From Alcanivorax sp. DG881 (GTDB lineage: Bacteria > Pseudomonadota > Gammaproteobacteria > Pseudomonadales > Alcanivoracaceae), in contig NZ_DS989915.1 in the NCBI RefSeq assembly GCF_000155615.1, positions 2,063,955 to 2,127,954 of the forward strand: a stretch of 64,000 nt of DNA, given 5' to 3'. The position numbers and the translations under genes are program-made. Position 1 is the first letter of the stretch, and each line of letters begins with the position of its first letter. A model generated the notes under the pieces. That model was not told the origin of the DNA. It worked only from the letters and a program-made list of their open reading frames with translations, and ran no database searches. Shown piece by piece: positions 19,779 through 41,939 of this stretch.

Positions 19779-20723
19779 ATGGCTCTGGCAAACCGCAAGA
19801 TTGGTTACGACGAGGTTGTAACCCGTGACATTCACTTTCCCATGAACATCGAAAACGTGGCTCGCCACTGGTTTCGCAACGACCCGTGGTCCACTCACTG
19901 GATGAATGCCATTCTCGCCGCCGTCCCCGACGGTGAACGCTGGGTGATGAATTCTGCAAGACGGCAGCTTGGCAAGCTTGACGATCCAGAAGTGCTGAAC
20001 GCAGCTAAAGAATTCATTCGCCAGGAGCGCATTCATGCTCGTGAGCACGATGAAATGAACGCCATCGGCGTGCAACACGGGGTTCCCATCGACAAGGTTG
20101 AAGGCGTGTTCAAGCTGATCCGTAAGCAACTCCAACACCGCCTCAGTGACGATATGCAGAGCTCCATCGCAGCGGCGTTTGAACATTTCACGGCCATTAT
20201 TTCCTCGGTACTGCTTGAGCACCCGGAGCTGTTTGACGAAACCCACCCGGATTTGCGTGCCATGCTCTACTGGCACTTTGTCGAAGAAACCGAGCACAAG
20301 AGCGTCAGTTATGACGTCTTCGTCGATGCCAGTGGTGGTGGCTACCGCAGTTACCGACTGCGTATCAGTGGCATGCTACTGGCCATTGCCCTGGGCTTCC
20401 CCATTATGATCGGCAACCAGACCTATCTGCTCTACAAGGATCGTCAAATTCTGAATTTGTGGTCCGCCGCCAAAATGACCAAAGTCCTGTTCTGGCGTCC
20501 CGGCATTCTTTCCAAGGTACTCGCTGGCGTGCCCCCCTATTTCTCCCCCACTTTCCACCCGTGGGATGACGATAACCGTGATGTAATCCGGATCTGGAAA
20601 CGCGCCTACGAAAGAACTGGCGACCCTCATAAGGCCTATCAAGCGCTCAGAGACCATCGCGCCAACAATGTACACGGTACATCCGAAACGCCACAACCTG
20701 AACCCGCATGGGGGCAGGCATGA
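19779..20723 (+). CDS. PF10118 family protein, ferritin-like di-iron candidate (paralog A)
   Basis: The 314-residue protein belongs to the family named predicted metal-dependent hydrolase (PF10118). The visible conserved residues are Glu53 (PDGER), Glu83/His86 (QERIH), Glu135 (FEHFTA) and Glu170/His173 (EETEHKS). That is the E / ExxH / E / ExxH ligand set of ferritin-like di-iron oxygenases, so an oxygenase role is plausible, though unproven. A hydrophobic helix at about residues 199-220 suggests membrane association. It is the first gene of its operon; the SDR start overlaps its stop (ATGA). ATG 19779 with GGGAG is preferred over an upstream in-frame ATG lacking family sequence. Confidence 0.85.
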   Translation: MALANRKIGYDEVVTRDIHFPMNIENVARHWFRNDPWSTHWMNAILAAVPDGERWVMNSARRQLGKLDDPEVLNAAKEFIRQERIHAREHDEMNAIGVQHGVPIDKVEGVFKLIRKQLQHRLSDDMQSSIAAAFEHFTAIISSVLLEHPELFDETHPDLRAMLYWHFVEETEHKSVSYDVFVDASGGGYRSYRLRISGMLLAIALGFPIMIGNQTYLLYKDRQILNLWSAAKMTKVLFWRPGILSKVLAGVPPYFSPTFHPWDDDNRDVIRIWKRAYERTGDPHKAYQALRDHRANNVHGTSETPQPEPAWGQA

Positions 20724-21547
20724 AAAAGAAACCCTTGCACCCGTCAACTCAGGCGGCAGCTGTCATCACCGGGGCGGGTAGCGGCATCGGTCGTAGCTTT
20801 GCTTACGAAGTTGCCCGTCGAGGCGGTTCGGTACTGTGTGTCGATATCAATGAAGAGCGCGCCGAACAGGTGGCGATCAGCCTGCGAGCACTCGGTACTC
20901 ACGCGGTAGCCCTGGGGTGTGATGTCGGCGATGAAAAACAGATGGCATACCTGGCGGAAAATGCCGAGCCTTTGCTCGGCAGGCCGGTAACCCTGGTAAT
21001 CAACAACGCCGGCGTCGGCCTCGGTGGCCCAATCGGCGAGGTGTCACTTGAAGATTGGCACTGGTGCATGAACGTCAATCTATGGGGGGTTATTCACGGC
21101 TGCCATTATTTTGCCCCTCAGCTTCGCGATCTGGGCTATGGAGGCATCATCAATGTGGCCTCTGCTGCCGCATTCGGGTCCGCCCCGGAAATGGCCGCCT
21201 ACAACGTCACCAAGGCGGGGGTGCTGGCCCTGTCCGAAACGCTGTCTTCTGAACTGACCGGTACCGGCGTAAAAATCACGGCCCTGTGCCCAACCGTGGT
21301 CCCGACCAATATCGTCGAGAATGGCCGCCTGCCTGAGCGTCGTCGCGATTTTGCTCGTTCAGCAATGACTCGCTATGCCCTGACCAACGCCGACCAGGTT
21401 GCTCGCCAGACCCTCAATGCCCTTGATCGAGGTGAGCTTTACATGCTGCCACAAATTGACGGCCGGCTTGCCTGGCGGTTGAAACGCCTGACGCCACGAC
21501 TATACGCCCGCGCGATTGGCGAAGCTTACAGAATGCTGGCTGATTAA
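20720..21547 (+). CDS. Short-chain dehydrogenase/reductase
   Basis: This 275-residue SDR has the cofactor motif TGAGSGIG, the NNAGVG segment, a catalytic serine in the NVASAAAFG strand and the YNVTKAG (YxxxK) active site. Acidic Asp after the second strand (VDINEE) suggests NAD(H) preference. In this setting it could oxidise a secondary alcohol to the ketone used by the BVMO two genes downstream; this is inference. It overlaps the previous stop by ATGA at 20720, so the two are translationally coupled. The C-terminus carries basic helices like those of Rv3085-type SDRs. Confidence 0.88.
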   Translation: MKKKPLHPSTQAAAVITGAGSGIGRSFAYEVARRGGSVLCVDINEERAEQVAISLRALGTHAVALGCDVGDEKQMAYLAENAEPLLGRPVTLVINNAGVGLGGPIGEVSLEDWHWCMNVNLWGVIHGCHYFAPQLRDLGYGGIINVASAAAFGSAPEMAAYNVTKAGVLALSETLSSELTGTGVKITALCPTVVPTNIVENGRLPERRRDFARSAMTRYALTNADQVARQTLNALDRGELYMLPQIDGRLAWRLKRLTPRLYARAIGEAYRMLAD

Positions 21548-21585
21548 ACCGCATTTGAGGAAACGGAACACGCAAGGAATTCAAT

Positions 21586-22545
21586 ATGGCCTCCATTCCT
21601 ACAACAATTTTGAAGCTACTTTTTCGCGCCGGCATGAAGCGTGATATACGCGACCCGGACAAACTGGTAAGACATCTTCGCAGGGTGATGAACGCGCCTT
21701 TGGCCCCCTCTCTGCTGCCACGCGGAGTGCGACTCAAGCGAGGCAAGGTTGCAGGAATAGCTGGCCACTGGCTAGGCACCGCAGACCCACAAATCACCAT
21801 ACTCTACCTGCATGGTGGCGCCTTCATCGGCGGGCGGCTTGATACCTATCACCGCTTTTGTGGCCGTTTGGCTCACGCCCTGAATGCGCGGGTCTTTCTT
21901 CCGGATTACCGACTAGCCCCTGAGCACCCCTTCCCGGCAGCAACGGATGACGCCTTTAATGTGTATCGTGAACTGATCGCAGACCCTCGCCCTGTGGTCA
22001 TTGCGGGAGACTCTGCGGGAGGCAACCTGACGTTAGTCACATTGCTGCGTGCCCGTGATCAGCTGCTGAAAATGCCGGCTTGCGCCCTCGCCATTTCGCC
22101 GGCATCGGATGCGCGAGGCACCCTGATGTCCAGACAGGCGAATAGCGACAGCGATACCATGCTTTCCCATGGCATGATTGAGGTGGCAACGGATATCTAT
22201 CTGGCCGGCGCGGACCCCGCTCACCCGTATGCCTCACCAATCACCGCGGATTTCACCGGCTTGCCCCCTCTACTTTTCACTGTCAGTAGCGAAGAGTGTC
22301 TGCGCGACGATACCCATGCAGCAGCACAATGCGCGCGAGATGCGGGGGTGCCCGTGCAGGTTCTGGAGCGCGATGATATGCCGCACGTGTGGCCCGTATT
22401 CACCTTTTTGCTACCAGAGGCAAAGCAGGACTTCCCTACCATCGTCCGAATTCTGGGAAAGTATCTGACCAGCAATAACGTCGGCAAAGCCCCATCCCAA
22501 ACGGTCAATGCTAGCGATAGCGCCATAGTTGAGGTTGCATCATGA
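21586..22545 (+). CDS. Alpha/beta hydrolase, hormone-sensitive-lipase type esterase
   Basis: This 319-residue esterase shows the HSL-family oxyanion-hole motif HGGAF (His76), the nucleophile elbow GDSAGG (Ser143) and a C-terminal catalytic histidine in DMPHVWPVF. Such enzymes cleave short to medium esters. Encoded directly before a Baeyer-Villiger monooxygenase (4-bp ATGA overlap), it is well placed to split the ester that enzyme makes into alcohol and acid. AAGGA precedes ATG 21586. LipR next to MymA in mycobacteria is a similar pairing. Confidence 0.88.
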   Translation: MASIPTTILKLLFRAGMKRDIRDPDKLVRHLRRVMNAPLAPSLLPRGVRLKRGKVAGIAGHWLGTADPQITILYLHGGAFIGGRLDTYHRFCGRLAHALNARVFLPDYRLAPEHPFPAATDDAFNVYRELIADPRPVVIAGDSAGGNLTLVTLLRARDQLLKMPACALAISPASDARGTLMSRQANSDSDTMLSHGMIEVATDIYLAGADPAHPYASPITADFTGLPPLLFTVSSEECLRDDTHAAAQCARDAGVPVQVLERDDMPHVWPVFTFLLPEAKQDFPTIVRILGKYLTSNNVGKAPSQTVNASDSAIVEVAS

Positions 22546-24185
22546 ATATGGCTGCTGTTGCAATCCATAACCCTCGCCCCAGCGTTACTCCTGATCATGA
22601 AGTCATTATCATCGGCGCGGGAATTTCTGGAATTGGTGCGGCAATCCAGCTGCGTGCCGATGGCATCAAAGATATCTTGATCCTTGAGCGAAGCAAGGAT
22701 GTGGGAGGAACCTGGCGCGACAACCGTTATCCGGGAATCGCTGTCGACATTACCTCGTTTACCTATTCATTTTCCTTCGAACAAAACGCAAATTGGTCTC
22801 GCGTTTTTGCGCCGGGAAACGAGCTTTACCAGTATACAAGACAGGTAACAAGCAAGTATGGCATCTACCCACTGATTCGCTTTGGTGTCGAAGTCGCTAG
22901 CGCCCGTTTTGATCTCGACAGCCATGTCTGGTTGATCGATCTTACGGATGGCAGGCGACTTAGTGCACGCCATATTGTCTCGGCCTGTGGCGGTTTGATA
23001 TCACCCAAGATGCCAGATATTGAAGGGCTTGATACGTTCCAGGGCAATGTCATTCACACTGCACGCTGGCCAGATGACCTTGATCTTAGTGACAAGCGAG
23101 TAGCGGTAATAGGCACTGGCGCCACTGCAGTGCAACTGATTCCGAAAATTGCCCGCCAGGCTCGTCAACTTGACGTCTACCAGCGCACCCCCATCTGGGT
23201 GCTGAAGAAGCCGGATCAGACTCTGCCTGGCTGGCTCAAGGTATTGTTCCGAACCGTACCGGGCTTGCAACGCAGCCTTCGCGGCGCTACCGACACCGTC
23301 AGCGAAACCCTGATGGTGCTTTCCGCAATATATTACCGGCAGGCCCCTTGGCTGGTTCGCATGTGTGAAAAGGCGGGCATAAACAACCTGCGCGAACAGC
23401 TGCCCAACCGCCAGGACCTGTGGCAAGCACTGACACCGAAATACGGCTTCGGGTGCAAAAGGCCAACGTTTTCCAACGACTATTTCCGAACCTTTGCCCG
23501 AAACAACGTTGAGCTTGTCACGACCCCGATCAAGCGTATTACGTCCCGCGGCATCACCACCCAGGACGGCCGCTCACGGCGTATCGATACCTTGATCCTC
23601 GCCACCGGTTACAAAACCTTCGAGAAAGGAAATATTCCCTCGTTCGACGTCATCGGCAGCAACAACATCAATTTGGGCGATTTCTGGCATGACTACCGTT
23701 ACCAGGCCTATGAAGGGTTGACCATTCCGGGCTACCCGAACTTTTACATCATGCTCGGTCCCTATGCCCTTATCGGCACCTCTTACTTCAAGATGGTCGA
23801 AGGGAATGCCATCCACCTCTCTCGCTGTATTCGCGAAGCCAACCGACGTGGAGCCAGCCAAGTGGAAATACGTCAGTCCGTCCATGACGCGTATTTCCGC
23901 AATATCCAGAAACGCCAGCAAAACACCGTGTTCCTTAACCACAACTGCGCGCTGTCGAACAGTTATTACTTCGACCATCATGGTGACGCGCCAATGCTGC
24001 GGCCCTCTACCTCTCTGGAAATGCTGTGGCGAGCCAAGCATTTACCGATGGATCACTACCGATTCAGTGTACTGGCCGGGCACACTCCCAGCAGACACGA
24101 CGGCGGGAGACAAGCCTGTGAGCCACATCCCCAGCTGCCAGAGAAGGGCATTCCGGCAAAACAAACAGATAACAATTCTCAGTGA
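22542..24185 (+). CDS. Flavin monooxygenase, Baeyer-Villiger type
   Basis: This 547-residue flavoprotein has the FAD site IIIGAGISGIG (25-30), the BVMO fingerprint FxGxxxHxxxWP (F166QGNVIH172TARWP) and a second nucleotide fold VAVIGTGATAVQ. Family enzymes use NADPH and O2 to insert oxygen next to a carbonyl, turning ketones into esters. It is the last gene of the first operon, overlapping the esterase by ATGA. The closest known layout is the mycobacterial mymA locus. Substrate size cannot be read from the sequence. Confidence 0.9.
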   Translation: MNMAAVAIHNPRPSVTPDHEVIIIGAGISGIGAAIQLRADGIKDILILERSKDVGGTWRDNRYPGIAVDITSFTYSFSFEQNANWSRVFAPGNELYQYTRQVTSKYGIYPLIRFGVEVASARFDLDSHVWLIDLTDGRRLSARHIVSACGGLISPKMPDIEGLDTFQGNVIHTARWPDDLDLSDKRVAVIGTGATAVQLIPKIARQARQLDVYQRTPIWVLKKPDQTLPGWLKVLFRTVPGLQRSLRGATDTVSETLMVLSAIYYRQAPWLVRMCEKAGINNLREQLPNRQDLWQALTPKYGFGCKRPTFSNDYFRTFARNNVELVTTPIKRITSRGITTQDGRSRRIDTLILATGYKTFEKGNIPSFDVIGSNNINLGDFWHDYRYQAYEGLTIPGYPNFYIMLGPYALIGTSYFKMVEGNAIHLSRCIREANRRGASQVEIRQSVHDAYFRNIQKRQQNTVFLNHNCALSNSYYFDHHGDAPMLRPSTSLEMLWRAKHLPMDHYRFSVLAGHTPSRHDGGRQACEPHPQLPEKGIPAKQTDNNSQ

Positions 24186-24458: not shown

Positions 24459-24519
24459 AAACAGAAAATCAGAACAACTCACCATCTATAACCAGAACAG
24501 CCCCCTTTAGGAGCCTGAA

Positions 24520-25881
24520 ATGTCTGCAAAAAAAACAAAACGGTTACCTCTCCTTTTCTTCACGTGCACTACAGCATTGCTCTCACCCGGCTTGGCCATT
24601 GGCGGTGCTGGCGACGGAGCGAGCACTTATGGGCTAGGCCCGATGAATGCCGGCACTGCCTTGGCATTCAGTCCTTTTGCATCCAACAGCTGGTCGGTGT
24701 ACTACAACCCGGCCGCCATGGCCCGCTCCCCGGAGGGCGAACTGGGAGTCATTGTGCAGTATGGCGACCAGGAATTACGTGCTAAATCACTGGGAGGAAC
24801 AGACCCTTTGGAGCGAGAGAATGATATCCTCTCTGACACCAGTTCCGAACTATTATTAATCGGCTTCAAAAGCCGCGTCGCCGGCATTTCCAGCATCGAC
24901 AAGCCCATTTACTTTGGCCTGAACGTGGGTGTAGACCAATACACATCCAACCTATTGCCCTATCAGGCCAATACCAGCCAGAAAGGGCAGTTTCTACGCT
25001 ATGAATCTCAGCCACTTTATCTCGCCTTTGGTGGCGCTATCAGCAACGTCCTGAGGGGCGTTGACGTCGGCGCATCAGCACGTCTTACCCTCCAGGCCAA
25101 AGCCAACCTGGAAGCAGTTTCAGACCTTGGCGGCAACACAGACTCTGAAAAACTTTCCCTGGAAGCCTCTCCATCCCTATCACCGGCACTAGGTATCAAT
25201 ATCCGCTCTGGAGAAATGTTTTGCGGTACAAGCGAGTGCATGCCTTTTGGAATGGATAAGATGGAGCTGGCTCTTTTCTGGCGGGGGGAAAGTAGCTATG
25301 AGGTATCCGTGGATGCCAATGTGGTTGTGCCGGGAGTTATCCCTGAACCAGGCCTGAGCCTAGCGCTTAGTACAATTGATACCTATCAACCTGAAGTTCT
25401 CGGCGCAGCCATTTTGCTTCCCGTTGGCAAATTCGAATTAACGGCAGGCATTGAGCAGCACAATTGGTCTGCGCTTGAAAGCGAGTTTGCCGACGATACT
25501 ATTCGCGATCAGGCTAATCTAGCGTTTGACGACATCACCATTCCCCGAATTGGCGTTAGCTATCAGTGGTCGGAGTCCATGAAACTCTTTGCCGGCGCAG
25601 CCCTGGAGGACTCACCTTTAAAATCCAGCCGATCCCAGGACGTTAACTATCTTGACACCGATAAAAAGGTTTTCGGTCTGGGTGCCAGCTACCGTCTGTC
25701 CAGCGCGCCAATAATAGATATGCCATTAGAACTCTCCTTCGCTTACCAGTATCAAATTCTGGATGAAGCTGATTTCGAATTGACCTCCATCAACTCTTCC
25801 ACCGATCCAGCCCCTTATGAAACGGTAAGGGCTGATGGTGAAATAAACGTATTTTCTTCCTCCCTGTCGCTAAAGTTTTAA
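24520..25881 (+). CDS. OmpP1/FadL-family outer-membrane transport protein
   Basis: The 453-residue protein has a signal peptide (about residues 1-27, ending LSPGLAIG). The mature N-terminus GGAGDGASTYGLGPMNAGTALAF...WSVYYNPAAMA is characteristic of FadL-type channels, where the plug domain begins. The rest alternates polar and hydrophobic residues as in a 14-strand barrel and ends in a terminal aromatic strand SSLSLKF. FadL relatives bring long-chain fatty acids or hydrocarbons through the outer membrane. Its place in the catabolic regulon makes it the likely importer of the substrate. AGGAG precedes the ATG. Confidence 0.88.
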   Translation: MSAKKTKRLPLLFFTCTTALLSPGLAIGGAGDGASTYGLGPMNAGTALAFSPFASNSWSVYYNPAAMARSPEGELGVIVQYGDQELRAKSLGGTDPLERENDILSDTSSELLLIGFKSRVAGISSIDKPIYFGLNVGVDQYTSNLLPYQANTSQKGQFLRYESQPLYLAFGGAISNVLRGVDVGASARLTLQAKANLEAVSDLGGNTDSEKLSLEASPSLSPALGINIRSGEMFCGTSECMPFGMDKMELALFWRGESSYEVSVDANVVVPGVIPEPGLSLALSTIDTYQPEVLGAAILLPVGKFELTAGIEQHNWSALESEFADDTIRDQANLAFDDITIPRIGVSYQWSESMKLFAGAALEDSPLKSSRSQDVNYLDTDKKVFGLGASYRLSSAPIIDMPLELSFAYQYQILDEADFELTSINSSTDPAPYETVRADGEINVFSSSLSLKF

Positions 25882-25915
25882 CAACAGGCATGCGATTAAT
25901 ACCAGGAGAAGAGCA

Positions 25916-28900
25916 ATGAATAATAACCCCATCACAATCCACCAGTTTCTGATTAGTCTGGCGGTCGCCATAGCAGCCCTTCTGACCGGGTGCGGTGGCG
26001 ATCAGGGCGATGTAAGCAATCCCTGGAGCACACCAGAGACATTAATTTTTTCTTACCCTTATCCTGGCCAGACCGAGGTTCCAGCTACCGCGCCAGTAAT
26101 CCTGCGATTTTCCTCTGCACTTGAGCAAGAGGTTATTGATGACATTGACTCACGCCTACAGCTGGTCAGTGATACTGATGGGAATACCGTCATGGTTGAC
26201 TATCAGGTGGTAGACAATGGCAGAGGCCTGGCCCTGTATCCTCAATCGCGGCTGGCTCCGGCGGAAGCGTACCATCTGGTTGTCAACGATGATGGCCTTG
26301 GAGCCATTGATGATAACTCCGTGGCCCGCGTTCGGTTTCGGACTGCAGGCAGTCAAGCCGGCGCATCGCAAACCATGGGAAGCGGCTCTTTCACCCTGCT
26401 TTCAGCCACTCCTCTAGACCAACCGTCATTGCTAGAGCCGATTGATGATGCCAGCCATCCCAACGACATGAGCACCTTCAGGATGTCGTTTAACCAAACG
26501 GTTGATCCGACCAGCACAGCATATGGCGAAACCGGATCGGTTCAACTTCGTGACAACCTCGGCAAGTTGGTTCCCGCATCGCTATTTTTGCAGGGTCGTT
26601 ACCTGACACTGGATCCTGACCAGGATCTGAAACCTGTGGAACACACACTAACGATTGCTGGGCTGCGGGCCCAGACTACCGGTGAACAGTTGCCGGAGTA
26701 CAATCGGACTTTTGTTCCGGAAGCCACTCTTCCCCGTGCTACATCCGTTCTAAAAGTTGGCAGTCTTGGAGCTGAGCAACCTGGACTAGTGTCAACTTTA
26801 ACCGGCAACCCGATCAATCAGGTGCCAGTACAATCCTTTGTGCTGGGAGATGAATCATTTACCGGGTTGAGCGGGGATCTAGCTGCAGATCTGGCTTTTG
26901 CTCCCAACTTTCCTAATGCCGTTCCACTGCGAGTACCCGCTGGTTCCGTACTCCGAGGCACCCCCGTGGACGTCAATATACTGGGCGAAATACCGTCCGG
27001 GCTGGAAACCGGTGAAGTCACCATCACGATACTCAGCGACGCTAATGGGTATCTGATCCCGAATCCATTCAGTGATTCCCCATCGGTTCCCCGCTATGCC
27101 CTGCTTAATATGGACGCAGCAATGACTGCAGCAGGTCAAGAGCCCAATGCGGCTCTCAGCCAGAACCTGCTTAATGTGCAGGTAGCGGGTTTAGCCGTTG
27201 TAAAGGATGGTGTACTAGTACTGGATGCGGTCAGTGTGGTTGAACCTGAAGTACTGGGCCTGGAGAAGGCATCCGGTCTGCTCTCATTCCGCATGGAGGC
27301 CTATCAAAACCAGCGCCAAGCGCCTGCCCCAAGCCAAGACACTCGACCCTTGCAGCTTCAGTCTTGGGCACCGGGAGAAACGTTCCAACCCAATGCAAGG
27401 CCTGGTGACCCCGTTATCCTGAACTTCAACAAACCATTAGACCCAGCTTCGGTGTTCCTTGACGGTGCCGTACAGGTTTCTGTTGATGATGTAGTAAAGA
27501 CGTACCCAATACGTCACGATGGAGCCACGATCATCATCGGAGGAGATATCCTTCAACACGGAAAAGACGTCGAGCTCACCCTCACCAGCCTGCTCCGAGA
27601 TACGCAGGGAAACCCGCTCAACCAGGACCAGACACTCAACATCCGCCTACCGGACTTCGTGCTTCCCAATGGCAGCACCAATGAGTTACGTGCACCACTT
27701 GTCGCTGCTGTTTTTCCCGGTTACCCCTGTGCGTTAACCGATGTCGATCTTACCGGCGAAAGAGAGACTTGGCGCAATGGCCGATGTGTAGGAGGTAAAA
27801 ATAGCGACCCGCTCTATCCTGTACCGAATCTGTTCAAGGATTTTAGTATTCGAGTCATCTTTAGCCGCAGTATCGACGGCGACACGGTTAATGATCAGAC
27901 TTTTGTTGTTGAACACTTCGATACCAACAATAACGCATGGGACCCCATCAATGGTCGTCTCAAGGTGCTTGCCCAGCGAATAGAGTTTCTCCCGAACAAC
28001 CCGTGGCAGATTGGCGAGCTTTATCGCTACACCCTGCACTCCGAGCAAAACTCGCCTGTTTGTGGCACCAATGCCATATGTTCAACCGATGGTGCACCGC
28101 TACAAACACGTCAAATCTCTCAGTCCAGTTCCTCAGCCCCAGAGCTTAGAGAAGGAGGTCCAGACCTAACCAATCACTTCGTTGTAACAGGGGAAGAGGA
28201 CCGGATCACCCGTGTGTCGTTACGCTCTCTGCCGGTTGCGGATGTTAACGCTAATCTTAGTATCGATGACAACGAGCAAGGTGCGATACCCGATGGTAAC
28301 GGCGGTGCCATTGCCGATGCCAACTACCTACAGCTTAGGCTAAAAAACAAATCGGGAGTAATAACCCATGCCAACATTGGCTGTGGTATAGGCGACGATT
28401 GCCCGGAAAAGAAATTTGCCTTTGTCGGGTCAGGCGCCTTGCAAGCCGGGGTAAGCCAGTATGAGCCGGATGTCACCATCAACCGACGCCTCATCGACAG
28501 CGACCCAATGACATCAAATGAAGTCACCGGCGCCGTCATTGCCAAAGTCTTCCCCACTGTTCTCCCAACGACGAGTGTGTTTCTGGAAGCCCGTGCACTG
28601 GGATTAATCACAATACCGTTAGACACCGGCCCCCTGGTGCTTCGCTTGGCATATGAAAACAATCAGCCCATTACTGGCTATATCACCCGAACCCCTGATG
28701 GCCCCTGGTTCAGTACTACGTTTGATCTCATGGTGGATGCACCAGAGTTAGAACCACGGCTAATTATAGAACTCGGGCATGACATCCGCAGCAAAGTAAT
28801 TACCGGAGTCACCCTCGAAGGCCCCCTGCGCTTTGTCGATGATGGTCGTCTGATTCTCAAAGTCCGTAACCCCGACCCTCTCATCATACCGGCCAACATT

Positions 28901-29151: not shown

Positions 29152-29157
29152 AAATAA

Positions 29158-32512: not shown

Positions 32513-32553
32513 CATTTTTCTCTTTAACTATCACATTATTGATTGGAGGCGAT

Positions 32554-33550: not shown

Positions 33551-33584
33551 ACACCTTTTATCATAGCTTTTCTCTAGCCGATCT

Positions 33585-35186
33585 TTATTGCGCATCCTCT
33601 AGAATGAATTGTGCCGCTCGCTCGCCAATCATCATACATGGCGCGTTCGTATTACCACTGATCAACAGTGGCATGATCGAGGCATCGGCGACACGCAACC
33701 CCTTCACACCGTTTACCCGCAGACGGACATCCACCACCGCTTTTTCATCACTACCCATTCGGCAAGTGCCGACGGGATGGTAGATTGTTTCAGCGCGCTG
33801 GCGAATATCCGCGTCAATCTGGTCATCACTCTCCACGCTGGAAGCCGGTTCGTCATCACCGCCAAAAGCAGAGCTGAAAGAATGACTGTGAAACACTTTT
33901 CTGGCTAGTTTCACGCCTTCACGGAGCACAAGAATATCGTCAGGATGAGAAAGATAGTTTGGGTCTATCAAAGGCGCAGCAAATGGATCGCTATTGGCCA
34001 ATCGAATCTGTCCTCGACTCTTAGGCCTGAGTTGGCACACATGAATCGTACAACCAAACCCTGGCGTCAACTGACGTCCATGATCTCGAAGATAAGCCGG
34101 TAAAAAGTGTAGCTGAGCATCCGGACGATCCGGCTCGCTGAGCAGGCTGACAAAAGCCCCTGCTTCCGCCGCGTTACTGGCAAGAAAGCCGCGCCGATGA
34201 CGAAAATACTGGTAGAAGGCACTAATCAGCCGAGGTATAAAAAACGGTGACATGCCGATTGATTGACGGCTTTTGTCCTTGATCATGACGGTCATATCAA
34301 GGTGATCTTGAAGGTTCTCCCCAACTTCCGGCGAGTCTTGCAAACAGGTGATGCCGATTTTCGATAGGTGCTCTCGCTCTCCAATACCCGACAACATCAG
34401 CAACTGAGGGCTATTGATCGCCCCACCGGACAGGATGACTTCTTTGTTCGTACGAATGACCGATTGAGCACCATCACTATCACAAATTTCGACGCCAATC
34501 GCCCTGCCGCAATCCAGTAACACCTTGGTTACCTGCACATCCGTCATGATGTGCAGGTTATCGCGGCCACGTGCAGGATCCAGGAAAGCACGCGCGGCAC
34601 TCCATCGGCGCCCTTCTTTTTGTGTTACCTGAAACCGGCCAAAGCCTTTCTGTTCCGGCCCGTTAAAATCATCGTTTCGGGTATAACCCAGCTCTTCACC
34701 GGACTTAATAAACAGCGGGGTTAACGGGTTAACATCCCTGACTCGGGTAACATTCAGTGGCCCACCCACACCATGCCAATTGTCAGCGGAGTATTGTTCA
34801 TTGTTTTCATGTGCATTGAATACCGGCTGCACATCTTTCCACGCCCACCCTGTTGCGCCTTGCGCTGCCCAGTCATCATAGTCTTGTTGTTGGCCTCGAA
34901 TGTAGACCATGGCATTGATTGAGCTGCTGCCCCCCAGTGTTTTTCCTCGCGGCCAGTAGAGGCGCCTTTTATTAAGGTGACTCTGTGGCGCGGTGTCGTA
35001 GCCCCAGTTTCGCTTTCCTTGTTTAATTAGACCGATGAGTCCAAACGGAATATTAATAAAACCGCTATTATCGTGGGGGCCGGCCTCAATAAGACAAACG
35101 GAATACTTGCCGCACTCGCTTAACCGGTTGGCAAGAACACAGCCCGAAGAGCCCGCCCCCACGACGATAAAATCAAACGACTTCAT
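33585..35186 (-). CDS. GMC-family alcohol dehydrogenase (second copy)
   Basis: This 533-residue enzyme has FIVVGAGSSGCVLANRL, GGSSSINAMVYIRG, the second GMC signature SGGAINSPQLLMLSGIG and the C-terminal YHPVGTCRMG catalytic region. It is clearly homologous to the GMC enzyme of the CYP153 operon but is not a recent duplicate. ATG 35186 with GGAG upstream overlaps the end of the acyl-CoA dehydrogenase by 14 bp; the frame runs on to 35240 inside that gene. Likely role: oxidation of the alcohol released by ester cleavage. It is the last gene of the long minus operon. Confidence 0.9.
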   Translation of the reverse strand: MKSFDFIVVGAGSSGCVLANRLSECGKYSVCLIEAGPHDNSGFINIPFGLIGLIKQGKRNWGYDTAPQSHLNKRRLYWPRGKTLGGSSSINAMVYIRGQQQDYDDWAAQGATGWAWKDVQPVFNAHENNEQYSADNWHGVGGPLNVTRVRDVNPLTPLFIKSGEELGYTRNDDFNGPEQKGFGRFQVTQKEGRRWSAARAFLDPARGRDNLHIMTDVQVTKVLLDCGRAIGVEICDSDGAQSVIRTNKEVILSGGAINSPQLLMLSGIGEREHLSKIGITCLQDSPEVGENLQDHLDMTVMIKDKSRQSIGMSPFFIPRLISAFYQYFRHRRGFLASNAAEAGAFVSLLSEPDRPDAQLHFLPAYLRDHGRQLTPGFGCTIHVCQLRPKSRGQIRLANSDPFAAPLIDPNYLSHPDDILVLREGVKLARKVFHSHSFSSAFGGDDEPASSVESDDQIDADIRQRAETIYHPVGTCRMGSDEKAVVDVRLRVNGVKGLRVADASIMPLLISGNTNAPCMMIGERAAQFILEDAQ

Positions 35187-36288
35187 TTTGCTTCTCCCCC
35201 GCCTGAATAAACCGTGACATGTGGTGCTCTCGGTCGCCATGACTCAATGATGCATGTGTCACCAGACGGAAGTAATGGCCAATGTTCAGCTCTTCCGTAA
35301 CACCAACGCCACCATGGATCTGGATACCTTGCTGAGTGATACCAACGGCCCGGTTTGCGTAGTAAGCCTTTGCCGCCGCTGTCGCGCGCCCGCGCTCACA
35401 GACGTTTGCGCTCTCTCCTTTTACTGACACCATCAAGAGCATGGATTCCAGCTGCTGGAGATCAATAAACGCATCAACAAGGTAGTGCTGGATTACCTGA
35501 AAACTGCCAATCGTTCTACCAAACTGTTTACGCGTTCGAGCGTATTCCAGAGTGGCCTGATACACCTCTCGGCAGGCGCCGTACATACGTGCGCAGTCCA
35601 ATGCGCACAGATAATCGAACCAGGCAGAAACCGCTTGCTTTGCCGCATCACCACGACACAAAACCATTTCGTCTGTGATGAGCACATCATCAAGCGTCAA
35701 ACTGGCAGCACGGCTTCCATCGAGCAGTCGATATCTTTCAACGTCACAGGCGTCGAAAGGTAGCGCGACAATGACCAACTCATCACCAGACATAGCGGAG
35801 ACGAGCACGGCGTCTGCAACACCACCATCAGACACAACGTGCTTCTGCCCGGAAAGTCGTTCTCCGTTTAGCCTCAAGGAAGGGTTCAGCACGTGATAAC
35901 CGGCATGCCGGTCATAAAGACCGCAAGCCACACGTGCCTCACCAGCAATAATGCGATCAAGCAACGCCAAGGATGTTGGCGTATTGGCGAACTCCAATAA
36001 CTTGCCGGGGGAAACAATTAAATCGACAAAAGGGTCAAGACAAAGCGCGGCTCCTAACTCCTGAACAATGGCGCACACGTCAAGCAATGAGCCGCCATAC
36101 CCTCCAACAGATTCAGCAAACGGAAGGCCAAACCAACCCAAATCATTCATGGCCTGCCAGCGATTCGCTTCAAGGTGATTACTCTCATTCAACTGTGCAA
36201 TGTAGCTGTCAAATGAATAGTTGTCTTTAAGATAACGGCGCGCGGTATCCGCAATCATGGTGGTATTTTCGGGTAACTTGAAATCCAT
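35173..36288 (-). CDS. Acyl-CoA dehydrogenase, probable non-catalytic partner subunit
   Basis: The 371-residue protein has the ACAD fold: an N-terminal helical domain with GWFGLPFAESVGGYGGS, a middle beta domain and the C-terminal ARTRKQFGRTIGSFQVIQH and IQIHGGVGVTEE signatures. Near the C-terminus the usual catalytic YEG(T/S) segment is replaced by THASLSHGDREHH. Such divergent members form alpha2-beta2 heterotetramers with a second ACAD, as in mycobacterial FadE26-FadE27 type enzymes. The neighbour 8 bp upstream is an ACAD, which supports such a pair. GAGGTG precedes ATG 36288. Confidence 0.82.
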   Translation of the reverse strand: MDFKLPENTTMIADTARRYLKDNYSFDSYIAQLNESNHLEANRWQAMNDLGWFGLPFAESVGGYGGSLLDVCAIVQELGAALCLDPFVDLIVSPGKLLEFANTPTSLALLDRIIAGEARVACGLYDRHAGYHVLNPSLRLNGERLSGQKHVVSDGGVADAVLVSAMSGDELVIVALPFDACDVERYRLLDGSRAASLTLDDVLITDEMVLCRGDAAKQAVSAWFDYLCALDCARMYGACREVYQATLEYARTRKQFGRTIGSFQVIQHYLVDAFIDLQQLESMLLMVSVKGESANVCERGRATAAAKAYYANRAVGITQQGIQIHGGVGVTEELNIGHYFRLVTHASLSHGDREHHMSRFIQAGEKQNEVV

Positions 36289-36296
36289 TTTTCACC

Positions 36297-37457
36297 TCAC
36301 AATCCGAGCAACATCTTCGCCAACACGTTTTTCTGGATCTCGTTAGATCCACCATAGATGGTGCACGCACGCAGGAAGTTATAGCGGCGACTGGCCTGAT
36401 TAAAAATTTGCTCCCCAATGGGCTCCTCGTTATCCCATGGCAAAGACATCAAACCTCCGATTTCCACCATCGCTTGGGAAACCCTTTGCTGTAGTTCCGT
36501 GCCTTTGATTTTCAGTCCTGACGATTCTGGGCCGAACGGCTTGCCTTCATCTGTGGCAGCAACGGTGCGAAAGTTGGTGTATTCCAGTGCCATAAGATCG
36601 ACTTCCAAGCCAGCCAACCGACGCACCGCCAACTGCTTATCTGTTTCCGTTGGTAGCGCATCGATAGCACTTTTAAGGCGATTGATTTCGTAGTGAATAT
36701 CCGCCACACCGGCAATGGTGGTGCGTTCGTGGGTAAGAAGAAATTTGGCAATGGTCCACCCCATTCCTTCTTGACCCACCAAATTTTCCACAGGCACTTT
36801 CACGTCGGTAAAATAGACTTCGTTAAGGTGATGATGCCCATCAATTGAATAAATCGGCCGTACTTCAAGCCCGGGGGTTTTCATATCGATCAGCAGGAAT
36901 GAAATACCCTGCTGCTGTTTCACGGTGCTATCCGTTCGCACCAAGCAAAACATCATGTCTGCCCAATGGGCCTGTGTCGTCCAGATTTTTTGACCATTAA
37001 CCAAATAATGGTCGCCATTACGCGTGGCTCGCGTTTTTAACGAGGCCAGATCTGAGCCCGCATTGGGCTCAGAATAACCTTGGCACCATAGCGTTTCGCC
37101 ACGCTGAATGCCGGGCAACCACCGTTCCTTCTGTGCTTCAGAACCAAAGGTATATAACACCGGCCCAACCATGGCCACACCAAAAGGACTTGTTGGCGGA
37201 GCCCCTGCCGAGGCGCGTTCCTGATCGAAAATATACCGCTGGGTTGCGCTCCACCCTGGGCCACCAAATTGTTCTGGCCAAGTAGACGTGAGCCAACCTT
37301 GACTGCCCAGCAAACGCTCCCATCGTTGCTGCATATTCTTGTCTGGCATCGCTCCTCGGGCAGTACAGCGCCGAATATCATCAGGCACATTTTCCTTCAT
37401 CCACTGCCGGATACTCTTACGAAATTCTTTTTCGTCATTACTGAAATCCAGATTCAT
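36297..37457 (-). CDS. Acyl-CoA dehydrogenase, larger subunit type
   Basis: The 386-residue ACAD has GWLTSTWPEQFGGPG, the flavin-contact region CQGYSEPNAGSDLASL, KIWTTQAHWAD and the C-terminal ACTIYGGSNEIQ. The YGGS form lacks the glutamate found in YEG-type enzymes, as in FadE26-like subunits where the base lies elsewhere. It should introduce the 2,3 double bond in a CoA ester together with the neighbouring ACAD. ATG 37457 has GGAGG five bases upstream; the longer frame would need a TTG start at 37469. Confidence 0.86.
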   Translation of the reverse strand: MNLDFSNDEKEFRKSIRQWMKENVPDDIRRCTARGAMPDKNMQQRWERLLGSQGWLTSTWPEQFGGPGWSATQRYIFDQERASAGAPPTSPFGVAMVGPVLYTFGSEAQKERWLPGIQRGETLWCQGYSEPNAGSDLASLKTRATRNGDHYLVNGQKIWTTQAHWADMMFCLVRTDSTVKQQQGISFLLIDMKTPGLEVRPIYSIDGHHHLNEVYFTDVKVPVENLVGQEGMGWTIAKFLLTHERTTIAGVADIHYEINRLKSAIDALPTETDKQLAVRRLAGLEVDLMALEYTNFRTVAATDEGKPFGPESSGLKIKGTELQQRVSQAMVEIGGLMSLPWDNEEPIGEQIFNQASRRYNFLRACTIYGGSNEIQKNVLAKMLLGL

Positions 37458-37504
37458 GGAAGCCTCCAAGCCAATAAATTTCGCAATACAAGGTCATCGA
37501 TTAC

Positions 37505-39055
37505 TCAATTAACCTGTTTACCGTTGCTCTCCCAAAAGGGGGCTCGCAGTTCGTTTTTCAGCACCTTACCTGCCCCACTCACCGGCAACGACTCTGCCTT
37601 AAAATCAACGCTACGAGGCACTTTGTAACCTGCAATTCTTTCACGGCAATGTTCGATAATCTCTGCCTCACTGGCGTGCTCTCCTTCACGCAGCACCACG
37701 ATTGCATGCACAGCTTCACCCCAGCGTTCATCGGGAATACCAATTACCGCGCACTCCTGTACCGCAGGATGGCTATAAATGGCACCTTCAACTTCAACAG
37801 AGAAAATATTTTCTCCACCGCTAATTACCATGTCCTTGGCTCGATCAACGATGAAGACAAATCCATCCTCGTCCATGTAGCCAAGGTCGCCGGTATGTAG
37901 CCAACCATTGCGCAAGGTATCAGCGGTTGTTGATTCCATTCCCCAGTAACCCAACATGACGTTTGGTCCCCGCGCACATATTTCGCCAACCGTACCTTGA
38001 GATACCACCTGATCATTTTCATCAAGCACCACCACCTCCACACCCAGTGCTGCGCGACCGGCGCTACGTAATTTTTCTCCGCCGGGAATGTGATGTTCTG
38101 GCCCGAGTGAGGTAATGATTGGGGAGGCTTCGGTCTGGCCATAGCCCTGAGCAAATGACACTGTCGGCATTTGTTCCATAGCACTAATCAATACCGCCTC
38201 TGGCATTGGCGAGGCGCCATACAGCATGCGTTTTATGCTGCTGACATCGTAATTGGCGATGCGCCCAGATGAGGCTAGAAGATTGACCATGGTCGGCACC
38301 AACAGGGTGTTCGTGACTTTCTCCTGCTCAATGAAAGCCAGCACTTCATCAACATCAAAGCGAGGAACAATGCCATGTGTCCCCGCAGCCAGTGTCACGG
38401 CAAACGTGCTGGCCATATCAGCCAAGTGGAACATGGGCCCGGCATGCATATATATGGTGTCACTGTCATAGCCCATCTCGGCAACCACGTTCAGGGCATT
38501 GAATACCAGGTTGTCATGACTCAGCATCACGCCTTTTGACCGCCCAGTGGTACCACCGGTATAAAACAGCCCCGCCAGATCGTCACCGCCAGCATTGGCG
38601 TCACGGATTCGATCGGCGTTGGCGACAAGGGATTCATAATCAATACACCCTTGTGGACACTCACCCTCACCCATGAAGACAACATGCTTGATAGACTCAA
38701 GCTGTGGCTGTAGGGATGGCAGCAATGCTGCAAAGGTGTCATCAACGAAAAGCACTTTAGAACCTGAGTCATTCAAGGTATAGGCGATTTCAGGTGGTGC
38801 GAGCCGAATATTGACGGGATTCACTGCCGCACCGGCCCACGACACTGCATAGAAATACTCCAGGTAGCGATCGCTGTTTAATGCCAGTATGGCAACCCTG
38901 TCACCCGCATTGATGCCCAGACTTAGCAACCCGTTAGCAAGGCATGCGATACGGTCTTCAAACTCTCGCCAGGTTTGCCGCCGACCAGCAAAAACGGTAG
39001 CCGTACCTTGGCCGTTTAATTGAACCGCACGGCGCAAAGTCTGTGAAATATACAT
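37505..39055 (-). CDS. Acyl-CoA synthetase (AMP-binding, FadD-like)
   Basis: The 516-residue ligase has the P-loop YTGGTTGRSKGV, the GYGQTEASP motif, the GWLHTGDLGYMDEDGFVFI hinge and the C-terminal catalytic lysine region LPVSGAGKVLKNEL. It activates a carboxylic acid with ATP and CoA before the two ACADs act on it. Overall it resembles medium- to long-chain ligases such as FadD13. GAGGAG precedes ATG 39055. It lies between the thioesterase and the ACAD pair. Confidence 0.9.
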   Translation of the reverse strand: MYISQTLRRAVQLNGQGTATVFAGRRQTWREFEDRIACLANGLLSLGINAGDRVAILALNSDRYLEYFYAVSWAGAAVNPVNIRLAPPEIAYTLNDSGSKVLFVDDTFAALLPSLQPQLESIKHVVFMGEGECPQGCIDYESLVANADRIRDANAGGDDLAGLFYTGGTTGRSKGVMLSHDNLVFNALNVVAEMGYDSDTIYMHAGPMFHLADMASTFAVTLAAGTHGIVPRFDVDEVLAFIEQEKVTNTLLVPTMVNLLASSGRIANYDVSSIKRMLYGASPMPEAVLISAMEQMPTVSFAQGYGQTEASPIITSLGPEHHIPGGEKLRSAGRAALGVEVVVLDENDQVVSQGTVGEICARGPNVMLGYWGMESTTADTLRNGWLHTGDLGYMDEDGFVFIVDRAKDMVISGGENIFSVEVEGAIYSHPAVQECAVIGIPDERWGEAVHAIVVLREGEHASEAEIIEHCRERIAGYKVPRSVDFKAESLPVSGAGKVLKNELRAPFWESNGKQVN

Positions 39056-39113
39056 AACAGAACTCCTCTATTGAGGCAGAAAAGGAAGGGGGGAGGGTTG
39101 TTTATAGATTGGA

Positions 39114-40052
39114 TTAGCTGGAAGCGAAGGCTCTCTTATAAATGAAGCGACCTCGGGAAACCTGGGCGCCATCAAGAAACACATCCACAACAACCACAAT
39201 GAAGCGCTTTCCTTCACGAATAATGTTCGGCTTGGCCACCAACGTACCCGCAAAGGCCGGGCGCAAATAATCCAGAGTCATACTTGAACATACTGGCTTA
39301 TTTTGTTCAGTCTGATTCGCTGTTAAGTGCGCGCCAGCAACAAGCTCCGCGAAGCTTGCGATAATACCGCCATGAAAAGTCTTGATCAGAGGGTTGCCAA
39401 TGTGCTGCTCGCGAAACGGCATTTTATAGGTTGCTTCGCCGTTATCGTCCGAAGCCGTCATACCAAGAAATTTTTCGTATGGTGATACATCGCCGACCAC
39501 AGTAGAGAGAGCGGTTACCCTTTCTGTTTCGAAGCTGATGATTCCTTCATCATCGATTGTTTTTTTCTTGGAGGGGGCTCTCTTATTGCTAGGATTCACA
39601 GATTGATCAAAGGACGGGCCTGCCGTTCCTATCGCAAAACTGCCTGATACCGACGCCAGCAAATTGCCGCCATCACGCCCAAATGCCTCTCCACGGACAT
39701 AGGCAATATTTTCTTCAACTGCAAAACAGGTGACATTACATGCCACCCCTTCGCCAGCCTCGGGTTTAGCGATGAAATCAACGCGCAAGTCAATTGTCGC
39801 AATTGGGCGCATGTCGCCGAGGCGCACAAAAATCGCCAAACCACATGCCGTATCAAGCAAGGTAGCGATGGCTCCCCGATGAAGCTTTCCCTGTTGATCA
39901 CAAACCTCTTCCACACAAGGCATGCTCATTACCGCGCCATCTTTGGTAATGTCATCCATTGCGATACCAAAAACCCTGAACAACGGATGCCCTGAACCAA
40001 AAAAAGCCTTTGCGGCAAGCAGTTCTCTCGGGAGTGATGTCTCAGCTGTCAT
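39114..40052 (-). CDS. Double-hotdog acyl-CoA thioesterase-like protein (PaaI type)
   Basis: The protein of about 312 residues contains two PaaI-like hotdog domains in tandem, each with the HGG/HRG active-site helix: LHRGAIATLLDTACGLA in the first and FHGGIIASFAELVAGAH in the second, joined by a basic linker (NKRAPSKKK). It could hydrolyse stalled acyl-CoA esters during catabolism. The start is uncertain: ATG 40052 follows the BtrH-like stop by 16 bp but has a poor ribosome site, and ATGs at 40088 or 40094 would overlap the upstream gene. Confidence 0.82.
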   Translation of the reverse strand: MTAETSLPRELLAAKAFFGSGHPLFRVFGIAMDDITKDGAVMSMPCVEEVCDQQGKLHRGAIATLLDTACGLAIFVRLGDMRPIATIDLRVDFIAKPEAGEGVACNVTCFAVEENIAYVRGEAFGRDGGNLLASVSGSFAIGTAGPSFDQSVNPSNKRAPSKKKTIDDEGIISFETERVTALSTVVGDVSPYEKFLGMTASDDNGEATYKMPFREQHIGNPLIKTFHGGIIASFAELVAGAHLTANQTEQNKPVCSSMTLDYLRPAFAGTLVAKPNIIREGKRFIVVVVDVFLDGAQVSRGRFIYKRAFASS

Positions 40053-40068
40053 AGTTAGCAACTTTTTA

Positions 40069-41070
40069 TCAGAATGTTGAAGCGGCATCCGCATACCGGG
40101 TCTCTGCAACACGCACAGATTCAATGGCGTCCGTTATTGCCTCTTCAGGGAATGTTTCACTTTCGGACCCCTTTCGCAGACAATCAGCCAGAGCGGACCA
40201 TGCCGCAGCACTCGTTCGCATCAACTCGACCAAGCCTGCCTCATGTATTTCAGGAACAATTTCACTCGCTTCATCGAGAAATTCTGAATACATCGCTCTA
40301 AAGCCGCTGCCCCCCGTTCCACGCTTCTCGATCACTTGATAGGCGAAACGGAGCAACCATTGCCATTTATCCACTGCCTTCCAGCGAGGAAGTTCCTGGA
40401 TCCAAGTTGTTAGCGCTTGAATACCGTGATTCCTGCTTCCTTGCAGGAGATTATCTGCATTCTTCACAATCGCACTGCGCACGTTCTCGGCAGACACCTG
40501 AACCGAAACACTTTCGGGTGCGAACAATGAACCATGATGGATAAAGGGTGGCGACAAGGAGAATCTGGCTTCAACCAACTTGTCACGAGGCACCTCTAAA
40601 AGCCCTGGGCGCTCGGTATCGCTAACGAGCATCGTCTCGCCCTTCTCGGCTCGCTGCCAGGCGACGATGGCGTGACCGGGGAAATGTGTACTGCTCTTGA
40701 AATAAGGAAGGTAAAAAATATCAGTTAAGAGAAGCGCAGGCCGCCCCGCATCAAGATGGGCATCCAGCGCATCGGCGGCAGCACATTTATCTTGCCAAGT
40801 TTCCCAGCGAAACGGCACGCCCAGTGTAGAGAACACCGTTTCCTCAAATCCCATTGAACGGACATGGACAATAAACGGGGTGTCCGTGCCTGGTATTTCC
40901 ACATAAGTAATACCAAGCCCGGCACCGAGACCGAAGCAGAAAGCTTCAGTTAAATTAAGCCCATGAAACTCCAGAAGATCCCTGATAGCTGAACTTCCAC
41001 AGTGGCGTCCGGGCCTATGAGTGTGCCGAAAATCAAAGGCACCGGGGTTACCCTGATCGTTGGTCTGCAT
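40069..41070 (-). CDS. BtrH N-terminal / DUF4872 domain protein
   Basis: The 333-residue protein has the BtrH_N pattern with an early HCGSSAIRDLL segment (candidate catalytic cysteine near residue 24) and an FPGHAIVAW histidine segment, followed by a helical DUF4872-like C-terminal half. BtrH of butirosin synthesis transfers an acyl group from a carrier protein; the fold resembles cysteine peptidases. Its task in a catabolic operon is unknown; an acyl transfer or amide hydrolysis step would fit. The ATG shares one base with the stop of the upstream PF10118 gene (TGATG). Confidence 0.78.
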   Translation of the reverse strand: MQTNDQGNPGAFDFRHTHRPGRHCGSSAIRDLLEFHGLNLTEAFCFGLGAGLGITYVEIPGTDTPFIVHVRSMGFEETVFSTLGVPFRWETWQDKCAAADALDAHLDAGRPALLLTDIFYLPYFKSSTHFPGHAIVAWQRAEKGETMLVSDTERPGLLEVPRDKLVEARFSLSPPFIHHGSLFAPESVSVQVSAENVRSAIVKNADNLLQGSRNHGIQALTTWIQELPRWKAVDKWQWLLRFAYQVIEKRGTGGSGFRAMYSEFLDEASEIVPEIHEAGLVELMRTSAAAWSALADCLRKGSESETFPEEAITDAIESVRVAETRYADAASTF

Positions 41071-41939
41071 CAGGCTGCCTCTCTCACAGGATCCGGACCA
41101 TAAATGGTCTCCGATGCCTGCATTGGATCACCATGAGCCTCATACTCTGCCAACCAGGCGGCAACCTTCTCAGGCATACCGGTGTCCCAAGGGTGAAACC
41201 CGGGACGAAACCAGGCAAGAAAATCAGGCAACATTCCTGTGAGAATACCTTTTCGCCCATAAAGTTTGTTCAAACCCTTCAGAATCACACCGGGCTGGCG
41301 CGTGACACCATCAAGCTTGAGCATATTCCAGAATACCGGTGCCACGACCAAATGAACCATCAGTGTCGCAACCACCAGCGCCGAGGCACGAGTCAGGTAG
41401 CCCCCCCCAGCCGCTCCCTGATAAAGATCATAGGCCACAGCCTTGTGTTCTACTTCTTCAACCCCGTGCCAAAGAAACAACGCTCTCATGACGGGATCGG
41501 CCTCGCCAAACATGTCGCTCTTCTCGCTAACCATGGCTTCGCCCAGGGTTGCCGTAAAGTGCTCAAACGCCGCAGTCATGGCGAGCTGATACTTCTTCGG
41601 CAGGTACTTTTGTGTGGTGCGAATAAACGTCCTTAAATTCGTAGTGACCTTATCTACATCCACGCCCTGGCTGGCCATCACATCGTTGAAACGATCATGG
41701 ACAATGCCGTGCTGACCTTCCTGGCGAATAAAGTGACGAATGTCCTCGATCAGCTGATCATCTGTCACCTGATCCTTGAAGTTACGCACTGACTGGATAA
41801 AGAAGCGCTCTCCCTCCGGGAAATGTACCGAGAGGGCGTCAAAAAAGCGGGTCAGCACGGGATCACCGCCATTCCAGTGCCGCGGCACTGATGAGACATC
41901 AAAAGCAACTTTACGTGGCTGGATTGGCAAAGAAGTCAT
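41070..41939 (-). CDS. PF10118 family protein, ferritin-like di-iron candidate (paralog C)
   Basis: The 289-residue paralog has Glu44 (PEGER), Glu74/His77 (QEGQH), Glu126 (FEHFTA) and Glu162/His165 (EEVEHKA), the same ligand pattern as paralogs A and B, and a hydrophobic helix at about residues 180-205. It is the first gene of the long minus operon. ATG 41939 is supported by GGAGG upstream and by alignment with the paralogs; the frame extends to 42044 across the promoter and operator. Confidence 0.85.
   Translation of the reverse strand: MTSLPIQPRKVAFDVSSVPRHWNGGDPVLTRFFDALSVHFPEGERFFIQSVRNFKDQVTDDQLIEDIRHFIRQEGQHGIVHDRFNDVMASQGVDVDKVTTNLRTFIRTTQKYLPKKYQLAMTAAFEHFTATLGEAMVSEKSDMFGEADPVMRALFLWHGVEEVEHKAVAYDLYQGAAGGGYLTRASALVVATLMVHLVVAPVFWNMLKLDGVTRQPGVILKGLNKLYGRKGILTGMLPDFLAWFRPGFHPWDTGMPEKVAAWLAEYEAHGDPMQASETIYGPDPVREAA

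Follow-up and report, generated by a model that had tools for sequence, protein, structure and literature searches.

PF10118 "predicted metal-dependent hydrolases" of Alcanivorax sp. DG881 are probably ferritin-like dimetal enzymes that activate O2

Several known ferritin-like dimetal enzymes serve as references here. The metal ligands of DnfA (Glu88, Glu123, His126, Glu182, His209, Glu213, and His216) are described as identical to those of AurF and CmlI (PMC9478400), and AzoC has been modelled with Glu102, Glu137, His140, Glu198, His225, Glu229, and His232 (PMC6783550). The R2lox protein GkR2loxI is reported to be a Mn-Fe alkane hydroxylase (PMC10867098), so that the R2lox fold is capable of this chemistry. 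Dimetal halogenases of the CylC/NocO kind carry QExxH and HxxDExxH, with Gln replacing Asp135 of AurF (PMC12101540), and have been mined by the motif ExxQExxH (PMC12871659). Here we examine three proteins, A, B, and C, encoded in a 64,000-nucleotide stretch of the Alcanivorax sp. DG881 genome (contig NZ_DS989915.1, positions 2,063,955 to 2,127,954; hereafter the window), which belong to the family PF10118, named "Predicted metal-dependent hydrolase" (Metal_hydrol) in Pfam. We find that they are most probably ferritin-like dimetal, and most likely di-iron, enzymes that activate O2 and are not hydrolases, with four long helices carrying the ligand motifs; we place the probability of this reading at roughly 0.85.

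Protein A (window positions 19779–20723, forward strand; PF10118 E 6.7e-74, 249.1 bits), protein B (32554–33438, forward strand; E 1.1e-82, 277.9 bits; an alternative TTG start at 32539 is possible), and protein C (41070–41939, reverse strand; E 3.3e-84, 282.9 bits) all score far over the curated cut-off of 33.2 bits. The proposed first shell of three His and four Glu would consist of E53, E83, H86, E135, H166, E170, and H173 in A (codons at 19935, 20025, 20034, 20181, 20274, 20286, and 20295), of E59, E89, H92, E140, H171, E175, and H178 in B as counted from the ATG at 32554 (codons at 32728, 32818, 32827, 32971, 33064, 33076, and 33085), and of E44, E74, H77, E126, H158, E162, and H165 in C. 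An initial annotation of the window had assigned all of these residues except the third His, as an E, ExxH, E, ExxH motif shared by the three paralogs, and a scripted readout returned each residue at the claimed position, with the claimed spacings of 30, 51–52, and 35–36 residues between motif elements exact in all three proteins. The overlooked His (H166 in A, H171 in B, H158 in C) stands four residues ahead of the last Glu and turns the final motif into HxxxExxH, which is the arrangement seen in the published CmlI and AurF chains. As a sharper reading of these sequences, we therefore propose an AurF/CmlI-like three-His ligand set in place of the usual two-His set.

Conservation was assessed in two sets of family members. 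The first (A5) holds 28 rows from a PF10118 profile search, namely B and ORFs (open reading frames) from 27 of the 29 loci L096–L124, with no suitable ORF in L108 or L121. The second (A3) holds 72 rows, namely the three window proteins and 69 ORFs from 80 loci found with two motif seeds, and leaves out near-identical, truncated, extended, or chimeric ORFs. We regard A5 as the fair test because A3 was partly selected on two of the motifs in question, and its invariance is thus partly built in. Each of the six residues of E, ExxH, E, ExxH, the ligand signature of the ferritin-like dimetal class, is present in 28 of 28 A5 rows, as is the third His. Equally invariant, and likewise missed by the initial annotation, are a His four residues past the first ExxH, a His right after the third Glu, and a Glu right before the last liganding Glu. 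In the alignments B is numbered from the TTG start (ATG numbering plus 5), and the positions kept in 28 of 28 rows are E64, E94, H97, H101, E145, H146, H176, E179, E180, and H183. The residue before the first ExxH Glu (Q93) is Gln in 24 A5 rows and Glu in the remaining 4, and Gln in 72/72 rows of A3. Every conserved position is kept in 72/72 A3 rows except for H183 (71/72), which is replaced by Tyr in L046:5956-6909, an ORF from a Moraxellaceae metagenome-assembled genome (MAG) that has other PF10118 copies nearby.

The spacing of the ligands was tested as well. Among 2065 ORFs of at least 120 amino acids from the window and loci L001–L095 (some of which duplicate window genes, and 108 of which are PF10118-like overall), the pattern E-x29-ExxH-x46..50-E-x33..37-ExxH matched 100, and all 100 were PF10118-like; the spaced pattern is more than chance. 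The 3.80-Mb genome of strain DG881 gave 15 PF10118 matches, two of which are pieces of one broken gene, and the residue pattern is present in all 14 resulting genes. Members of PF10118 occur in 140 of 390 sampled genomes of the order and in 29 of 200 of the phylum, often in several copies, and B recurs at 99–100% identity in loci from Alcanivorax and an Alcanivoracaceae MAG. A scan of viral contigs with B gave no match.

Structure prediction gave confident models with a ferritin-like layout. The AlphaFold models of B (mean predicted local distance difference test score [pLDDT] 94.3, predicted template modeling score [pTM] 0.89) and A (mean pLDDT 91.7, pTM 0.88) distribute the proposed ligands over four long helices, following the order known from ferritin-like proteins. 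The predicted helices span residues 47–73, 81–110, 134–157, and 167–182 in B, the last His falling one residue past the helix end called by DSSP, and residues 36–66, 70–99, 124–147, and 157–185 in A. In this arrangement, helix 1 would contribute a Glu, helix 2 QExxHxxxH, helix 3 EH, and helix 4 HxxEExEH. When the models were compared with the PDB by Foldseek, the two CmlI structures 5hyh and 5hyg ranked first and second for B (E 6.7e-3 and 1.3e-2, probability 1.00, template modeling [TM] scores 0.46–0.50), and below them, among the best 50 of 364 matches, stood mostly R2lox, desaturases, ribonucleotide reductase (RNR) R2, aldehyde-deformylating oxygenase (ADO), and methane monooxygenase (MMO) hydroxylase; a TENA/THI-4 protein came in at rank 46. 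For A, the best 50 of 259 matches were led by R2lox 6f6f (E 7.6e-2, probability 0.99) and AurF 3chu (E 9.5e-2, probability 0.97), followed mostly by R2 proteins. As judged by helix placement and fold comparison, the models give no sign of a fold that would keep these residues apart, which would have refuted the initial annotation; the best 50 matches of each model are mostly ferritin-like dimetal oxygenases or oxidases.

A sequence link to AurF (PF11583) is fainter. Against the curated cut-off of 29.6 bits for this family, B reached 15.6 bits (E 0.009) and C 17.3 bits (E 0.0027), and the top AurF score seen for a PF10118 protein was 25.3 bits (L100). At E up to 0.1 the AurF profile matched 31 of the 72 A3 members (best E 2.9e-5) and 11 of the 28 A5 members (best E 1e-5), and when run on whole genomes it retrieved three PF10118 genes (G054, G032, and G048, with E values of 1.7e-5, 1.6e-4, and 6.2e-4). 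In a profile-profile comparison, a PF10118 alignment of 99 sequences scored 27.9 against four three-His PF11583 proteins (probability 7%; P 0.005, which is optimistic because the subset was picked after a ten-protein mix had failed). None of 150 column shuffles attained this score (best 21.6), and the reversed profile scored 12.6. The alignment pairs all seven proposed ligands of B (TTG numbering) with those of L125, the best PF11583 match in the genome search, whose ligand residues stand at DnfA numbers: E64/E88, E94/E123, H97/H126, E145/E182, H176/H209, E180/E213, and H183/H216. The same weak alignment also pairs Q93 with D122 and E179 with D212. AurF-type proteins carry Asp at both of these sites, whereas PF10118 has Gln or Glu at the first and Glu at the second (28/28 in A5).

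Several results weigh against the reading and against kinship with AurF. No Foldseek match reached E 0.001 and the top TM-scores lay at about 0.37–0.5, for which reason we take the Foldseek result as a statement on fold class. A gave no PF11583 match at E up to 1. When compared with the full set of ten PF11583 proteins, in which AurF-type and R2-like members were mixed, PF10118 gave no signal, and L125 alone drove the link with the three-His subset (14%, versus less than 1% for each of the other three). As a positive control, AurF-type against R2-like proteins reached 97%, compared with 7% for PF10118. Global-mode hhalign returned no usable alignment, a phmmer search of solved-structure sequences with B was empty up to an E value of 1, and the A3 profile retrieved from those sequences only a designed repeat protein (E 7.8). 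The scores observed lie under the PF11583 cut-off and so place PF10118 outside AurF proper, of which it would by sequence be at most a very distant relative. With AurF, CmlI, DnfA, and AzoC it shares the four-helix order, a register of the seven proposed ligands with the DnfA-like L125, the CmlI structures at the head of B's fold matches, and weak AurF profile matches; it differs in falling under the family cut-off, in the Gln and Glu at the two Asp sites, in its extra invariant His residues, and in its catabolic gene context. R2lox heads the fold matches of A and accounts for many of those of B, but the six R2-like PF11583 proteins, which are without the third His, gave no sequence signal (probability 0.4%). 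All in all, we consider it very likely that PF10118 proteins are ferritin-like dimetal proteins, and highly probable that they are O2-activating redox enzymes.

The genes around A and B suggest what such an enzyme might do. Operon A consists, in order, of A, a short-chain dehydrogenase/reductase (SDR; 20708–21547; PF00106 E 7.9e-46), a hormone-sensitive-lipase (HSL)-type esterase (21586–22545; PF07859 E 7.2e-57), and a flavin monooxygenase (FMO; 22542–24185; PF00743 E 9.5e-14), all on the forward strand. Operon B, on the same strand, consists of an alpha/beta hydrolase (29158–30126; PF00561 E 2.9e-21), an FMO (30123–31649; PF00743 E 1.2e-17), an SDR (31646–32512; PF00106 E 1e-49), and B. The same four functions are therefore present in differing order, and adjacent genes overlap or lie no more than about 40 bases apart. 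Both FMOs carry FxGxxxHxxxWP (at 23037 and 30600), which we take to be the fingerprint of Baeyer-Villiger monooxygenases (BVMOs). In subterminal alkane oxidation, an alkane oxygenase is followed by an alcohol dehydrogenase, then by a BVMO, and finally by an esterase.

In the proposed mechanism, the two metals would be reduced, O2 would bind, and a peroxo intermediate would oxidize a hydrophobic substrate; for operons A and B the best candidate reaction would be the hydroxylation of an aliphatic carbon. The SDR would then convert the alcohol to a ketone, the BVMO the ketone to an ester, and the hydrolase the ester to an alcohol and an acid. That PF10118 proteins are C–H hydroxylases feeding the SDR, BVMO, and esterase steps is plausible, if somewhat less likely than not, and their place as the first oxygenase in operons A and B is proposed through guilt by association. 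The pathway has been studied in Thalassolituus oleivorans, where growth on a C28 alkane upregulated the dehydrogenase, BVMO, and esterase of this route; the study did not identify a specific subterminal monooxygenase, and its authors considered that a co-expressed alkane monooxygenase (AlkB-type) might perform the first step (PMC6304351). Candidates for the same dehydrogenase, BVMO (AlmA/BVMO), and esterase steps are present in operons A and B together with a PF10118 gene; the term "metal-dependent" is absent from the main text of the T. oleivorans study (PMC6304351). According to a study from 2025, AlmA is active on ketones, and alkane hydroxylation by LadA was undetectable in vitro (PMC12449030). 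If it is a di-iron oxygenase, PF10118 would be a concrete candidate for the first step of subterminal oxidation.

Gene neighborhoods were also counted more widely. Among 80 related loci, 29 have an SDR within 4 kb of the PF10118 gene, 21 an FMO, and 17 a B-type alpha/beta hydrolase, as raw counts without a background rate. The B cassette occurs in 12 of these (L016–L027), which are not independent because they are 71–100% identical to B; the remaining 68 loci have an SDR in 17 and an FMO in 9. Unbiased clustering of 460 neighbors gave an SDR group as the largest, present at 23 of the 80 loci, and FxGxxxHxxxWP occurs in 23 of the 25 FMO-like ORFs of L016–L095 and the window. It was not found in L159 or L160. 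In the DG881 genome itself, 5 of the 14 PF10118 genes have an SDR no more than 3 kb away (random mean 0.91, P 0.0014; circular shift P 0.0004), 3 have an FMO at such a distance (P 0.0014; circular shift 0.0058), and 3 have both (P 0.00025), in a test that used 45 of 49 SDR, 13 of 14 FMO, and 5 of 7 esterase matches after weak or split ones were dropped.

Other points speak against a role in this pathway. The genome test was prompted by A and B themselves, and among the 12 genes other than A and B, one (L159) has both an SDR and an FMO and three have an SDR. An HSL-type esterase is near only 1 of the 14 genes (P 0.10, not significant), and 59 of the 80 loci have no FMO within 4 kb. Other recurrent neighbors are DegV, LysE, and a permease, in a Marinobacter-rich set, and also an acyl-CoA ligase. 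The same genome also carries an FMO-esterase-SDR cluster that lacks PF10118, and no substitute hydroxylase was recognized there (L160, ORF starts only). None of the three genes A, B, and C was found to have a dedicated reductase next to it. Other alkane hydroxylases are also known in Alcanivorax, among them P450 and AlkB, as reported for A. borkumensis (PMC6850023).

The strongest competing explanation keeps the ferritin-like dimetal site and assigns it another oxidation, such as desaturation, aldehyde deformylation, N-oxygenation, or oxidation of an acyl-CoA or acyl-protein. We consider this possible, if somewhat doubtful, and it fits C best. C leads a seven-gene operon on the reverse strand, the rest of which (33585–41070; assigned by Pfam and ORFs) encodes, in transcription order, a BtrH-like protein, a double hot-dog thioesterase, an acyl-CoA ligase, two acyl-CoA dehydrogenases, and a GMC (glucose-methanol-choline) oxidoreductase, so that acyl-CoA enzymes and a thioesterase are at hand; in operons A and B, the enzymes are those of ketones and esters and not acyl enzymes. 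Acyl-acyl carrier protein desaturases and ADO stand beside N-oxygenases among the listed Foldseek matches of B, and the ligand set is most like that of N-oxygenases, but no amine-metabolism gene was recognized among the annotated operon neighbors.

A ferritin-like metal protein that is no oxygenase, with a rubrerythrin-like role in peroxide scavenging or in handling iron or oxygen, appears improbable. The Rubrerythrin profile does match 5 of the 72 A3 and 3 of the 28 A5 members, and three paralogues lie near TonB-dependent receptors, but AurF matches outnumber those of Rubrerythrin, and neither the 14 copies in one genome nor the operons with catabolic enzymes suit such a role. The three paralogues (L149, L151, and L154), one of which also has a PepSY_TM protein nearby, occupy a context unlike that of A–C.

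That the database label is right and PF10118 proteins are metal-dependent hydrolases is very improbable: it has the Pfam name in its favor, together with a listing among protease groups that rests on the same name (PMC8960859), but no hydrolase family matched more than one member (a single Glyco_hydro_77 hit, E 0.027), no hydrolase fold was recognized among the best 50 listed Foldseek matches of A or B, and alpha/beta hydrolases are already present in operons A and B. In Pfam scans of the 72 and 28 members, no family other than PF10118 itself, AurF, and Rubrerythrin matched more than two, which lends no support to a mononuclear hydrolytic zinc site, the finding that would have spoken against the initial annotation. 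Because no hydrolase family or fold stood out, the label is very probably wrong. The proposal that these proteins are di-iron oxygenases rather than hydrolases is supported by the invariant ligands, the ferritin-like models, and the CmlI, R2lox, and AurF fold matches, with the metal, the oxygenase chemistry, the electron donor, the substrate, and the pathway standing as inferred.

A CylC-like halogenase is the least probable alternative and was rejected, since PF10118 shares with these enzymes, compared by motif only, a three-His last motif and the Gln of QExxH that marks these halogenases (PMC12101540; 72/72 and 24/28 rows) but has Phe (72/72 in A3) or Phe or Tyr (28/28 in A5) in place of the first Glu of ExxQExxH, HxxEExxH in place of HxxDExxH, and a catabolic setting. 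The shared Gln may nevertheless be relevant to reactivity.

Should the dimetal oxygenase reading hold, the annotations of all PF10118 members would change. As a speculation that we think unlikely but worth stating, PF10118 could be an unrecognized family of di-iron C–H hydroxylases with an AurF-like three-His site that, in Alcanivorax and relatives, performs the first step of the subterminal oxidation of long-chain or branched hydrocarbons, turning alkanes into secondary alcohols for the SDR, BVMO, and esterase encoded alongside; the substrate range would in that case be set by the many copies that a genome carries, 14 of them in DG881. In open-licence PMC text we found no mention of UCP07580, PIRSF007580, IPR016516, COG3687, or Metal_hydrol, and PF10118 appeared only in PMC8960859; a ferritin-like assignment of the family may already be present in a database (Pfam/InterPro clans).

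The initial annotation had also noted a hydrophobic helix past the last motif. In A, B, and C the best 19-residue Kyte-Doolittle means are 1.86, 2.05, and 2.22, and the stretch begins 19–21 residues beyond the last motif His. A mean of at least 1.6 is reached by only 11 of 28 A5 rows and 37 of 72 A3 rows, so we dropped the idea of a universal membrane anchor; membrane contact is possible for A–C but is not a family trait.

Fusions of PF10118 with a redox partner were also considered. Long ORFs in L041, L049, L063, and L077 and L090:1140-2918 were judged by eye to be mechanical start extensions, and L028:5950-7008 (Agitococcus), in which the start of a GMC oxidoreductase is joined to a C-like PF10118 sequence without the first Glu, was set aside as a chimera, perhaps of assembly. 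A further PF10118 copy of the DG881 genome (L156, about 7100–8000; also L010 and L015) is broken by a change of frame or a stop and sits downstream of genes for a protein with an NAD-binding oxidoreductase domain and for an FAD monooxygenase. The BtrH-like gene directly after C (40069–41070; PF14399, with DUF4872 and a DarH acyltransferase relation below cut-off) is an odd partner for a catabolic operon, and a C-like gene in L028 likewise has a BtrH relative nearby.

Operon A is adjoined by a P450 operon on the reverse strand (13022–17756; Pfam), which encodes a 2Fe-2S ferredoxin (17439–17756), a cytochrome P450, a GMC oxidoreductase, and a ferredoxin reductase (13022–14251) and has an AraC-type regulator beside it. 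Its ferredoxin and reductase are possible, unproven electron donors. Between operons A and B (24520–28996) lie genes for a FadL/TodX-type outer-membrane transporter and then a 1026-residue Big_5 protein with a lipoprotein-like start, possibly for hydrocarbon uptake. A phage-type integrase gene (11616–12830) and transposase (rve) genes (45220–46062 and 59845–60714) bracket or follow the cluster, and the G+C content drops from 60–62% (1–12000) to about 50–56% (16000–44000). The three PF10118 operons thus have the look of belonging to a mobile island. The window yielded no tRNA gene. A further stretch of low G+C content (46948–51314; 42.5% at 48001–52000) encodes a DEAD-box/helicase protein along with others that have no Pfam match, and it may be a foreign, perhaps defence-like segment.

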